Origin: Stenotrophomonas maltophilia R551-3
GTDB lineage: Bacteria; Pseudomonadota; Gammaproteobacteria; Xanthomonadales; Xanthomonadaceae
Assembly (NCBI RefSeq): GCF_000020665.1
Contig: NC_011071.1
Coordinates: 2,904,501-2,968,500, forward strand
Direction of reading: 5' to 3'
DNA: 64,000 nt
Shown here: in pieces, positions 21,172-24,889 of the stretch
Layout: each line of letters opens with the position of its first letter
Numbering within the stretch: position 1 is the first letter of the stretch
Position numbers and translations under genes: made by a program
Notes under the pieces: model-generated
What the model was told of the DNA's origin: nothing
The model's input: only the letters and a program-made list of their open reading frames with translations
Database searches by the model: none

Positions 21172-21403
21172 CCGGGCCTTTGCGGCCCAGATTGCGGCAG
21201 CCCGCCGCCACTTTGCGCGGCATGGCCTTTGGATGGAGCGTTCTTCAACCCCGGCGGAGTAATGACATGGTATGCACATCACTGAATGCAAGGTCGACCT
21301 GGGTTGCTCACCCGAATTATTTTATTTCCCTTCAAAATCAAAATCTTGAATGGATGTTTCAGCACCATGACCACCCCTGCCATCAGTTGGGGCCGGCAAG
21401 GAC

Positions 21404-21431
21404 TTGCACGACGGCGTGCCGGTGTTATAGT
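21404..21431 (+). promoter_or_regulatory. promoter of the GntR/ABC operon
   Basis: -35 TTGCAC (21404-21409), 16-bp spacer and -10 TATAGT (21426-21431). It would begin transcription around 21438, 31 bp before the first small gene. Confidence 0.65.
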
Positions 21432-21444
21432 TGCATACAACACC
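21421..21444. promoter_or_regulatory. palindromic operator for the GntR/YtrA-type regulator
   Basis: GGTGTTATA, 6 nt, TACAACACC: nine-base arms with a single mismatch, covering the -10 box and the start point. YtrA-type regulators bind such sites and repress their own operon; binding here is inferred. Confidence 0.6.
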
Positions 21445-21468: not shown

Positions 21469-21705
21469 ATGAACGCCCGGATACGTCGCAACCTCACCGC
21501 ACCCGCGGCCGCTGCCGTTTCGACCCTGATCGTGCTGGCCTGGCTGGCCGCGCCAACCTCCCCCGCTTCAACCGACAGTGCGCAGGACGCGACCACTTCA
21601 CCGGCAGGCAATGCTGCCCCCTCCCCCCCCCCCCCGCGTCGGCTGCACAGCTCCCTGTCCATGCCGTACTTCTCGTTCGCCCAGCCGCTGACCCCACGGA
21701 GCTGA
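21469..21705 (+). CDS. small membrane/exported protein with a C13 tract
   Basis: 78 residues, preceded by GGGGGAAG at a good distance. Basic N-terminus (MNARIRRN), then a hydrophobic segment (about residues 11-28, AAAAVSTLIVLAWLAAP) that could be a membrane anchor or signal. A run of 13 C (21623-21635) encodes the proline stretch in APSPPPPRR. The stop codon lies 2 nt before the GntR start codon, so translation is probably coupled. I do not recognise a family. A gain of one C or loss of two would join this frame to that of the GntR gene with no stop between. It could also be a leader whose main job is coupling. Confidence 0.55.
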   Translation: MNARIRRNLTAPAAAAVSTLIVLAWLAAPTSPASTDSAQDATTSPAGNAAPSPPPPRRLHSSLSMPYFSFAQPLTPRS

Positions 21706-21707
21706 AT

Positions 21708-22067
21708 ATGAGCGACATCCAGTGGAGCGACGGTGCTCCCATCTACCGTCAGTTGAAGGAGCGCGTGATCGCCATGATGCTCGACGGAATCCTCAAGCCG
21801 GGCGATGCCCTGCCTTCGGTGCGCCAGGTGGCCGCCGACTACCAGCTCAACCCCATCACCGTTTCGCGCGCTTACCAGGAACTGGCCGACGAAGGCCTGG
21901 TCGAAAAGCGCCGCGGGCTGGGCATGTTCATGACCGAACAGGCGGCCACGCAGCTGCGCAGCAGCGAACGCGAACGCTTTCTCAATGAAGAATGGCCAGC
22001 GGTCCTGGAGCGCATCCAGCGCCTGGGCCTGAGCCTCGACGAATTGCTGCCCCAGGGGAAATTCTGA
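21708..22067 (+). CDS. GntR-family regulator, YtrA subfamily
   Basis: 119-residue repressor. The N-terminal winged helix is complete (PIYRQLKERVIAMMLDG, then PSVRQVAADYQLNPITVSRAYQEL, EKRRGLGMFM), followed by the short two-helix dimerisation tail typical of YtrA-type members rather than a large ligand domain. YtrA-type genes usually sit before ABC transporter genes, as here: the ATPase gene starts within the stop codon (TGATGA). A palindrome that fits its operator lies over the operon promoter. Signals sensed by this group in other bacteria are often envelope-active antibiotics. Confidence 0.93.
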   Translation: MSDIQWSDGAPIYRQLKERVIAMMLDGILKPGDALPSVRQVAADYQLNPITVSRAYQELADEGLVEKRRGLGMFMTEQAATQLRSSERERFLNEEWPAVLERIQRLGLSLDELLPQGKF

Positions 22068-22957
22068 TGAATGCCAGTCCCACTACTGCTGCATCCGGCG
22101 ATGCCGTCATCACCGCCAAAGGCCTGCGCAAGGCCTACAAGACCACCGTCGCCCTCGACAATGCCAGCTTCAGCATTCCGAGCGGGCGCATCATCGGCCT
22201 GATCGGCCCCAACGGTGCCGGCAAGACCACTGCCCTGAAAGCCGTGCTCGGCCTGACCTCGGTGGAAGGCGAGCTGAGCGTGCTCGGCCGCGATCCGCGG
22301 CTGCATCGCGATGAGCTGATGAACGACATCTGCTTCATCGCCGATGTCGCCGTGCTGCCGCGCTGGCTGAAGGTCCGCGAGGCGATCGATTTCGTCGCCG
22401 GCGTCCATCCGCGCTTTGACCGCGCCCGCTGTGAGCGCTTCCTGGCCAACACCAAGCTGCAGCCGAAGCAGCGCGTGCGCGAACTGTCCAAGGGCATGAT
22501 CGTGCAGCTGCACCTGGCGCTGGTGATGGCCATCGATGCCCGTATCCTGGTGCTGGACGAGCCCACCCTGGGCCTCGACATCCTGTACCGCAAGGAGTTC
22601 TACCAGCGCCTGCTGGAAGACTACTTCGATGAGCAGAAGACCATCATCGTCACCACCCACCAGGTGGAAGAGATCGAACACATCCTCAGCGACGTGATGT
22701 TCATCCGTGACGGCCGCATCGTGCTTGATGCGGAAATGGACGAGGTCGGACGGCGCTACACCGAGCTGCTGGTCAACGCCGATCAGCTGGATACCGCGCG
22801 CGCCCTGAAGCCGATCGACGAACGCAGCCTGACGTTCGGCAAGACCGTGATGCTGTTCGATGGCGTGCCGCGCTCCCAGCTTTCCACCCTTGGCGAGACC
22901 CGCAGCCCGGGCCTGGCCGACCTGTTCGTCGCCATCATGAAGGGGACCTACGCATGA
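22067..22957 (+). CDS. ABC transporter ATP-binding protein
   Basis: 296-residue ATPase of a drug/antibiotic-type exporter (CcmA/YtrB-like). Walker A is GPNGAGKTT (about residue 45), the signature is the variant LSKGM, Walker B is ILVLDEPTLGLD and the H-loop is TTHQVEE. The last 70 residues form a C-terminal extension common in this group. Both ends overlap neighbours by four bases (ATGA), so it is tightly coupled to the regulator and permease. The substrate is not readable; envelope stress or peptide export is plausible from family habits. Confidence 0.93.
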   Translation: MNASPTTAASGDAVITAKGLRKAYKTTVALDNASFSIPSGRIIGLIGPNGAGKTTALKAVLGLTSVEGELSVLGRDPRLHRDELMNDICFIADVAVLPRWLKVREAIDFVAGVHPRFDRARCERFLANTKLQPKQRVRELSKGMIVQLHLALVMAIDARILVLDEPTLGLDILYRKEFYQRLLEDYFDEQKTIIVTTHQVEEIEHILSDVMFIRDGRIVLDAEMDEVGRRYTELLVNADQLDTARALKPIDERSLTFGKTVMLFDGVPRSQLSTLGETRSPGLADLFVAIMKGTYA

Positions 22958-23976
22958 ATGCCGTCAACCACCCCGTCAGCCCACTGGGCACGCTGCGCTG
23001 GCTGCTCAAGCGCGAGTACTGGGAAAACCGCGGAGGATTCCTGTATGCCCCGCTGATCGCCGGCCTGATTTCGCTGGTGATGAGTACCGTCGGCATCGCC
23101 TTCGGCCTGTTCGCGCTGAATCGCGCCGCGCGCAACGGCGGATTCCATGTCGATGGCGAAAGCGTGAACGTCAACGGCCTGGACCTGGCACTGCTCACCC
23201 GCAACATCGACAGCAAGGACCTCACCGACCTCGGCAACGGCCTCGACCTGACCCTGGTGCTGAGCTCGGCATGGCCGTTCCTGGTGCTGGCCTTCGTGGT
23301 GTTCTTCTACTGCCTGGGCGCCCTGTACGACGACCGCCGCGACCGCAGCATCCTGTTCTGGAAGTCGCTGCCGCTGTCGGACACCCAGACAGTGTTGTCC
23401 AAGGTGATCAGTGCACTGGTGGTGGCACCGCTGATCGCGGTGATCGCCGGCATCATCACCATGTTCGGCTTCATGCTGATCATCAGCATCGTGGCCCTGA
23501 TGCATGGTGGCAGCCCGATGACCCTGATCTGGGGTCCGGCCAGCCCGCTGACCCTGGCCGCCGGCCACCTGTCCTGGATTCCGGTCTATGCCCTGTGGGC
23601 ACTGCCTACCGCAGGCTGGCTGCTGCTGTGCTCGGCCTGGGCCAAGAGCAAGCCGTTCCTGTGGGCGGTAATGCTGCCGCTGTTTGCCGGCGTCATCGTC
23701 AGCACCACCAAGATCATGCCGCTGTTCGGCCTGAGCACCGGCTGGTTCTGGCAGAACATCGTCGGCCGCCTGCTGCTGGGCGGCGTGCCGGGCATGGACC
23801 TGGTGTACCGCCTCAGCGCCGGTTCGCGGCGCGACCTGGATTCGGTGGTCAGCCTGATGTCCCCGGCTTCGCAGCTGAAGTCACTGGCGATGCCGGAACT
23901 GTGGATCGGTGCTGCCGTCGGTGCAGTGTTCATCTTCCTCGCCATCCGCCTGCGCAAGCGCGCCGGCGAGATCTGA
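22954..23976 (+). CDS. ABC transporter permease
   Basis: 340-residue membrane protein with about six hydrophobic segments: one near residues 28-52, then a large soluble loop (about 55-105), and TM segments from 108 to 230 and at the C-terminus (GAAVGAVFIFLAIRL). The plan resembles ABC-2 type permeases partnered with YtrB-like ATPases. The start overlaps the ATPase stop. No extracellular MacB-like domain is seen. It completes the transporter, two subunits of each presumably making the exporter. Confidence 0.88.
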   Translation: MNAVNHPVSPLGTLRWLLKREYWENRGGFLYAPLIAGLISLVMSTVGIAFGLFALNRAARNGGFHVDGESVNVNGLDLALLTRNIDSKDLTDLGNGLDLTLVLSSAWPFLVLAFVVFFYCLGALYDDRRDRSILFWKSLPLSDTQTVLSKVISALVVAPLIAVIAGIITMFGFMLIISIVALMHGGSPMTLIWGPASPLTLAAGHLSWIPVYALWALPTAGWLLLCSAWAKSKPFLWAVMLPLFAGVIVSTTKIMPLFGLSTGWFWQNIVGRLLLGGVPGMDLVYRLSAGSRRDLDSVVSLMSPASQLKSLAMPELWIGAAVGAVFIFLAIRLRKRAGEI

Positions 23977-24001: not shown

Positions 24002-24889
24002 ATGCGTTCCCTGCTCGCCTGTACCGCGTTGTTGCTGTTGCCGCTGTCGGCCCTTGCGACCGATGCACAGAACTGCAAGTTCACTGCCGCCCGCACGTTG
24101 AAGCTGGACGTGGCCGGTGCCAAGGCGGTGGTGTTCGAGGTCAACCAGCATGACCTGAAGGTGGTCGCCAGCGCTGGCGGCGGTCAGCTGGACGGCCGCG
24201 CCTGCGCGTCCAGCCAGGAATGGCTGGACCAGCTGGTGCTGGAGCAGCGCAAGGTCGGCGACAAACTGGTGGTGAGCCTGCGCCGCGACGGCCGCCAAAG
24301 CGGCATCAGCTTGGGCAACAGCTACGCCTGGCTGGATATCCGTGGCAGCGTGCCGGACAACATGCCGCTGCAGTTCAAGATCGGCTCGGGCGATGCCAGC
24401 GTGGAGAACGCACAGTCGCTGAGCGTGGACGTGGGTTCCGGTGACGCCGTGGTCCGCGGTACCCGGGGCAGCATCCATGCCGCGGTGGGTTCGGGCGACC
24501 TCGACATCGATGGCGGCAGCTCCCTGAATCTGCTGTCGCTCGGCTCGGGCGACGTTACGGCGCGCAACATCGGCGGCGATGCCATTGCCGGCACGGTCGG
24601 CTCCGGTGACCTGAAGATCACCGACGTGCGTGGCAACGCGCGGCTGGACACCGTCGGCTCGGGCGACATCGAGTTCAAGCGCGTGCAGGGCAATGTCGAG
24701 GTGGGCGTGGTCGGCTCCGGCGGCGTCGATCTCACCGACATCGGCGGCAATGTGCACGTCCGCAGCCATGGCTCGGGCGACATCCAGGTCGATGGCGTGC
24801 GCGGCAGCCTGACCGTCGACCACAGCGGCAGCGGTGACGTCGGCCACCGCAATGTCAGCGGCAAGGTCACCCTGCCGCGCAACAAGTAA
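24002..24889 (+). CDS. DUF2807 (GIN-domain) exported protein with GSGD repeats
   Basis: 295-residue exported protein. The signal peptide ends near residue 19 (LPLSALA). From about residue 125 to the end, a GSGD motif recurs about every 20 residues (GSGDASV, GSGDAVV, GSGDLDI, GSGDVTA, GSGDLKI, GSGDIEF, a variant GSGGVDL, GSGDIQV, GSGDVGH), which predicts a right-handed beta-solenoid. The family (DUF2807, putative auto-transporter adhesin head) has no proven function. GGAGG lies before the ATG. It follows the permease by 25 bp, so it is likely to be made with the exporter, perhaps at the outer surface of the cell envelope. Confidence 0.85.
   Translation: MRSLLACTALLLLPLSALATDAQNCKFTAARTLKLDVAGAKAVVFEVNQHDLKVVASAGGGQLDGRACASSQEWLDQLVLEQRKVGDKLVVSLRRDGRQSGISLGNSYAWLDIRGSVPDNMPLQFKIGSGDASVENAQSLSVDVGSGDAVVRGTRGSIHAAVGSGDLDIDGGSSLNLLSLGSGDVTARNIGGDAIAGTVGSGDLKITDVRGNARLDTVGSGDIEFKRVQGNVEVGVVGSGGVDLTDIGGNVHVRSHGSGDIQVDGVRGSLTVDHSGSGDVGHRNVSGKVTLPRNK

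Follow-up and report, generated by a model that had tools for sequence, protein, structure and literature searches.

A C13 tract in the predicted exported-protein gene that leads a YtrA/HpaR1-like operon of Stenotrophomonas maltophilia R551-3

The operon and its regulator

The window analysed here, a stretch of 64,000 nucleotides from the genome of S. maltophilia R551-3, contains a row of genes on the forward strand that begins with a small ORF and continues with a GntR regulator, an ABC ATPase and an ABC-2 permease (Table 1). The original prediction had the regulator controlling an ABC exporter operon, and the gene order, together with matches to PF00392, PF00005 and PF13346, supported a GntR/ABC operon. 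The DUF4097/DUF2807 protein encoded downstream of the permease is probably part of the same operon, judging from the spacing. A G-S-G-D motif is repeated in this protein.

Table 1. Coordinates of the features at the locus (position 1 is the first nucleotide of the window).
Feature	Position	Strand	Basis or remark
Probable promoter: -35-like TTGCAC (21404-21409), 16-nt spacer, -10-like TATAGT (21426-21431)	21404-21431	+	by eye
Probable operator GGTG-N16-CACC, GGTGTTATAGTTGCATACAACACC, overlapping the -10 element	21421-21444	.	
Small ORF of 78 aa; the product has a basic N-terminus, a hydrophobic segment, a Pro-rich linker and a conserved C-terminal peptide	21469-21705	+	
Hydrophobic segment LTAPAAAAVSTLIVLAWLA, residues 9-27, signal or anchor	21493-21549	+	Kyte-Doolittle
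C13 homopolymer in the linker	21623-21635	+	codons 52-56, SPPPP
Codon 54	21628-21630	+	CCC here; interrupting codon in relatives
Conserved C-terminal peptide RRLHSSLSMPYFSFAQPLTPRS, C13 frame	21637-21702	+	
Shine-Dalgarno-like GGAG for GntR, within the final codons of the small ORF and 6 nt from the GntR ATG	21698-21701	+	by eye
GntR regulator, 119 aa, YtrA-like	21708-22067	+	PF00392, E=1.3e-14
ABC ATPase, ATG overlapping the GntR stop	22067-22957	+	PF00005, E=4.4e-21
ABC-2 permease, 4-nt overlap with the ATPase	22954-23976	+	PF13346, E=7.7e-6
DUF4097/DUF2807 protein	24002-24889	+	signal-like start, by eye

A consensus promoter scan found no promoter, and the promoter recognised by eye at 21404-21431 falls below the threshold of that scan. 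The terminator scan returned one weak terminator-like site (21300-21314), at about the shuffle level. The probable operator has counterparts in related species. Of 80 named loci, 75 had the form GGTGTT-N12-AACACC no more than 330 nt upstream, and two of the five misses were cut contigs. These named loci are the best 80 of 93 relatives recovered with the pattern SLS[ML]PYFSF, so the C-terminal peptide of the small protein is present in them by construction. They come mostly from Stenotrophomonas and Xanthomonas, and many of their assemblies also belong to our genus set, so that the two sets are not independent. Within the R551-3 genome the pattern GGTGT-N14-ACACC was found at nine sites, compared with two for the reversed control pattern, and the core of GGTGTTATAGTTGCATACAACACC was unique to 21421-21444 among the nine. 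A possible second site for the regulator, GGTGTGGTAGTAAGGTAGTACACC, lies near the start of an ORF resembling a small exported protein (L260, G000:C1:204712-204735).

The regulator resembles the YtrA subfamily in three respects. It is a protein of about 120 residues (119 aa) with an N-terminal GntR winged helix (PF00392); a candidate operator recognised by sequence at its own operon is long (about 24 bp), and its half-sites lie far apart; and ABC transporter genes are present in that operon. Its best NCBIfam match was PmtR, which scored 61 bits where the cut-off is 200. HpaR1/YtrA of Xanthomonas, which was compared by its description, is likewise a YtrA-type GntR protein, though the genome here is from Stenotrophomonas; the available part of PMC7831014 writes “HpaR1/YtrA” as one. 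The motif of X. citri YtrA, as quoted in the accessible text of PMC6746942, has the form GGTG-N16-CACC, which is also the form of the candidate operator at 21421-21444. Most of the named Xanthomonas loci shared the order of operator, small ORF and GntR gene.

HpaR1 represses its own expression according to the part of PMC4730234 that was available. In the same text HpaR1 of X. campestris is a global regulator, and the repeat at which it activates gumB has a spacing of 1 bp, unlike the spacing of the candidate operator here. Given this global role, a model restricted to simple local repression may be incomplete and too narrow. In the HpaR1/YtrA literature covered, the portions available made no mention of a small ORF upstream of the GntR gene like the one found here.

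A similar plan is found in the ytrGABCDEF operon of Bacillus subtilis. It comprises ytrG, which encodes a 45-aa membrane peptide whose role is unknown, a GntR repressor gene and ABC genes, and it is repressed by YtrA (PMC8060467 and PMC12772383, in the parts available). Both operons combine a small membrane-peptide gene, a GntR gene and ABC transporter genes, though the operon here is shorter than that of B. subtilis. The two leading genes are alike in position: each is a short ORF with a membrane segment ahead of a YtrA-type gene, and the S. maltophilia ORF is predicted to belong to the same operon as the regulator, but its product has 78 aa and a conserved C-terminal peptide, whereas YtrG has 45 aa in the accessible descriptions. 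By this analogy the small protein may be the positional counterpart of the unexplained ytrG. As the leader of a YtrA/HpaR1-type operon, it is a candidate for a missing part of that regulatory system.

The small protein and its reading frame

For the N-terminal membrane segment that the original prediction claimed for the small protein, a hydrophobic segment was recovered at residues 9-27, where the 19-residue Kyte-Doolittle mean reached its highest value (1.89). The small ORF is conserved across the genus and into Xanthomonas. Family members (loci L179-L258 and the window) are about 74-85 aa long and share a strongly conserved C-terminal peptide, and among 12 chosen sequences the residues S62, L63, P66, Y67, F68, S69, F70, A71, L74 and S78 were invariant. 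A lipobox-like motif was present in 17 of 83 regions but absent from our own, by a loose pattern of which at least one match is doubtful. Scanning 12 family members against Pfam gave no match. The same 12 gave three single-member matches in NCBIfam (E 0.17-0.31), with none at E<=1 for the small protein of the window itself. A family-wide protein search at E<=1 matched 288 of 297 genomes; most of the matches were weak, and the strong ones served only as examples and were not counted. One record titled Bacillus subtilis SK7B5 (L208, JAHREJ010000038.1) carries a Stenotrophomonas-type locus and is probably mislabelled or contaminated.

The genus set consisted of 30 loci and 60 further stretches; the GntR gene was present in 88 of these 90 regions, one per genome, and the linker was assembled in 87. 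The locus was found in 88 of 91 genus genomes, our own included, and the three that lacked it were 76, 77 and 83% complete. In all 88 regions the small ORF ended with a peptide containing the FSFA core, and its stop lay 1-5 nt ahead of the GntR ATG. The gap between stop and ATG was 2 nt in 74 regions, 3 nt in 11, 1 nt in two and 5 nt in one; in the 80 named loci it was 2-8 nt throughout. The last 18 codons, taken at a fixed distance from the ATG, were compared in 74 regions. In the small-ORF frame, minor cells fell mainly on third codon positions (157, against 62 and 52 at the other positions), and mean amino-acid entropy was 0.24 bits in this frame versus 0.65 in the regulator frame. Since the conserved peptide lies in the C13 frame, it is the conserved protein that the present C13 state encodes. 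An open frame would link the small protein to the regulator, yet it has no special amino-acid conservation.

That linking frame was central to the original prediction, which proposed a switch to a membrane-fused form of the regulator. Fusion of the small protein to GntR was absent from all 88 genus regions and all 80 named loci, and a meaningful fused regulator of this kind found no support there. The predicted topology also points the other way, as a basic start followed by a hydrophobic stretch, and the lipobox-like motif of some regions, predict N-in/C-out export, and the fused product should therefore face the periplasm. GntR also has a Shine-Dalgarno-like sequence and an ATG of its own. 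In 11 of the 88 genus regions the small ORF already shares the GntR frame and is closed by a stop before the regulator, so a frameshift could not join it to GntR there. RNA folding at the tract or the regulator start was ordinary (z -0.40). We set aside EF-P-dependent stalling at the PPPP stretch, since outside the close group the prolines are not conserved.

The C13 tract in R551-3 and its relatives

The run of 13 consecutive C that had been reported at 21623-21635 was confirmed from the sequence, with T21622 on its left and G21636 on its right. The small gene does end 2 nt ahead of the GntR start, as had been stated (stop 21705, ATG 21708-21710). Frames were computed for run lengths from 11 to 15, and C13 gave a product of 78 aa ending at 21705. 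Gain of one C or loss of two moves reading into the regulator frame, in agreement with the earlier arithmetic, and yields 199 aa (C14) or 198 aa (C11), both ending at 22067. Loss of one C leads to the early stop that had been foreseen (C12, 73 aa, ending at 21691), and C15 stops at the same place (74 aa, ending at 21691). The frame arithmetic also reproduced the 24-residue joint between the small protein and GntR and the claim that the regulator frame is open from the tract through the regulator start.

The history of the tract was examined in a close group of 42 assembled regions whose GntR proteins are at least 96% identical. One of these (G075) was left out, its contig having a chimeric end that runs into unrelated letters, which left 41 regions including our own. 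The codon-54 position, located by counting from the 3' side, was CCT in 23 regions, TCC in 11, TCT in three, and TTC, ACC, ACT and CCC in one each. The single CCC was that of R551-3, and all 40 scored close relatives had a non-C base in the codon. The commonest 13-nt segments in the close group were C7TC5 (17 regions) and C5TC7 (8 regions). Across the genus, the longest C run around the linker did not exceed 8 in any of 86 relatives, against 13 in our own genome. Six close relatives could be aligned without gaps over 602 nt; each had between 18 and 36 substitutions relative to the window and no change in length. The nearest of them (G035) had 18 differences over the 602 nt and TCC at codon 54. 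Given the non-C base in 40 out of 40 relatives and the unchanged length in six, C13 arose by substitution. A base change alone would be the expected origin of an accidental homopolymer, while a slipping locus would be expected to vary in length; as the six gap-free relatives show substitutions only, the tract shows no history of slipping.

Comparison of the tract with other strains had been put forward as a check on phase variation; the comparison made here, with close relatives in the genus, did not support that reading. The C13 run is a homopolymer in a coding frame, as in a contingency locus, and it is long enough to slip in principle; this part of the original prediction stood. Classification as a contingency locus was not supported, for the tract was interrupted in all 40 scored close relatives, none of which kept it in varying length (the sister genome G074 is unreadable at the tract and G075 was excluded). 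The observation of the tract is real, and its reading as a contingency locus is unsupported by the comparison.

In the sister genome G074 the contig breaks exactly inside the tract, with ...CCCTCCCC on the left and GCACAGC... on the right of the break. The two sides are 98% and 100% identical to the window. This break would fit a long C run in the sister as well. Near the tract, contigs of G006, G075 and G096 likewise stop or run into unrelated letters. The tracts of G006 and G096 are interrupted in spite of the nearby breaks, and for this reason such breaks are weak evidence. A Stenotrophomonas MAG (G112; L058 and L197, with the same sequence in L197) had a 1-nt deletion in the C-rich linker that frameshifted the small ORF, so that either frameshifts or assembly errors occur there. 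The pattern of the locus had no match in viral contigs. Among the literature matches listed, the parts available contained no description of the tract or the small gene, nor of homopolymer phase variation in Stenotrophomonas or Xanthomonas.

Interpretation of the tract and long runs elsewhere

We consider it most likely that the tract is an accidental, possibly slippery homopolymer in the gene of an exported small protein that leads an autoregulated YtrA/HpaR1-type operon. The operon would comprise, in order, the exported small protein, the GntR regulator, the ABC ATPase, the ABC-2 permease and the DUF4097 protein. The regulator most likely represses its own operon by binding GGTG-N16-CACC over the -10 element, by analogy with B. 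subtilis YtrA (PMC8060467) and the autorepression of HpaR1 (PMC4730234), as far as the available text of these sources goes. The basic start and hydrophobic segment of the small protein suggest export or anchoring that leaves the C-terminal peptide outside the cytoplasm. Translation of GntR is probably coupled to the small ORF, as the positions of the stop and the Shine-Dalgarno sequence near the ATG would suggest. The C13 run sits in a poorly conserved Pro-rich linker, where a base change at codon 54 removed the interruption seen in relatives. Should slippage take place, the conserved C-terminus would be lost at all lengths other than 13 ± multiples of three. It would be replaced, with an early stop, in C12 or C15, whereas the longer product of C14 (199 aa) or C11 (198 aa) would be sent to the membrane. 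GntR made from its own ATG should persist whatever the length of the tract.

An unlikely alternative is a newborn phase-variable locus, in which slippage of C13 toggles the small protein and one of the frames fuses GntR to it, altering expression of the ABC operon. The frame arithmetic permits both the switch and the fusion, but no fusion was seen among the loci examined, the fused protein would be exported, and GntR starts at its own ATG. A long poly-C in a coding frame, where a change of ±1 alters the product, is shared with contingency loci of Campylobacter and Neisseria. Their tracts differ in length among strains and cells, whereas the tract here was read in one genome only, is not uninterrupted in any of the 40 scored close relatives, and has the same length as the corresponding segment in the six gap-free ones. 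In its favour, 13 C exceeds the seven or more from which polyG/polyC tracts of Campylobacter were catalogued (PMC4965091, in the part available). No second homopolymer of any base longer than 6 occurs in the 64-kb window, the contig of sister G074 breaks at the tract, and a 1-nt deletion affects the same linker in one MAG. Nevertheless, the present frame is the conserved one. We give a slimmer chance to a contingency locus at its birth, in which one substitution would have cost the R551-3 lineage, perhaps with sister G074, a stabilising interruption, and slippage would toggle the exported peptide. If so, an occasional fusion of small protein and GntR would be lost from the cytoplasm, and autorepression of the ABC exporter would be altered.

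An error of sequencing or assembly is improbable. The true tract would then be C12 or C14, or would still contain the interrupting T. Long homopolymers are error-prone, and the contigs of four draft relatives break at or near the C-rich stretch; however, the length as assembled preserves the conserved frame exactly, where an error in length would usually break it, and the R551-3 assembly is a single contig of 100% completeness. Programmed slippage of RNA polymerase or the ribosome at the run, giving a minor fusion product from unchanged DNA, is very improbable. A slip of -1 would lead into the regulator frame, which is open, but the C run is not conserved, the frame beyond it has no special conservation (0.65 bits) and the predicted RNA structure is ordinary.

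On the preferred reading of an accidental homopolymer, the tract is probably ordinary as a switch. The comparison points to loss of a single interrupting base, and not expansion, as a way in which a long homopolymer can arise, and it cautions against calling contingency loci from one genome. The conserved leader protein of Stenotrophomonas and Xanthomonas is a more lasting point than the tract.

The rarity of such a run depends on the scale considered. Under Markov models (orders 1 to 5) fitted with the tract left out, the highest expectation was about 0.005 windows of 13 C per 64 kb (order 1), falling to 0.000008 at order 3. Dinucleotide shuffling, a weak control, produced at least as many C8 matches in 25 of 100 shuffles. 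The whole 4.57-Mb genome has four C or G runs of at least 10, with lengths of 10, 11, 13 (the tract) and 18. Runs of at least 12 were found somewhere in 60 of the 91 genus genomes, and in 18 of the 28 that are single contigs (hand tally), though several of the long runs in draft genomes lie at contig ends. C13 is thus unusual for a locus, and not for a genome.

The longest run of the R551-3 genome, a C18 (L008, G000:C1:3150166-3150183), lies in a stretch that is intergenic by eye. The G10 run (L001, G000:C1:1840462-1840471) is upstream of a gene resembling that of an efflux adaptor lipoprotein, and the C11 run (L002, G000:C1:2245066-2245076) lies 29 nt before an alkene-reductase-like gene, both genes being named by eye. 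The one homologous locus (of 12) that was read for comparison with this C11, that of G072, has a C15 in the corresponding intergenic stretch. A cluster of runs from C14 to C35 in another single-contig genome (L151, G062:C1:1374644-1374721) looked more like a sequencing artefact than biology.
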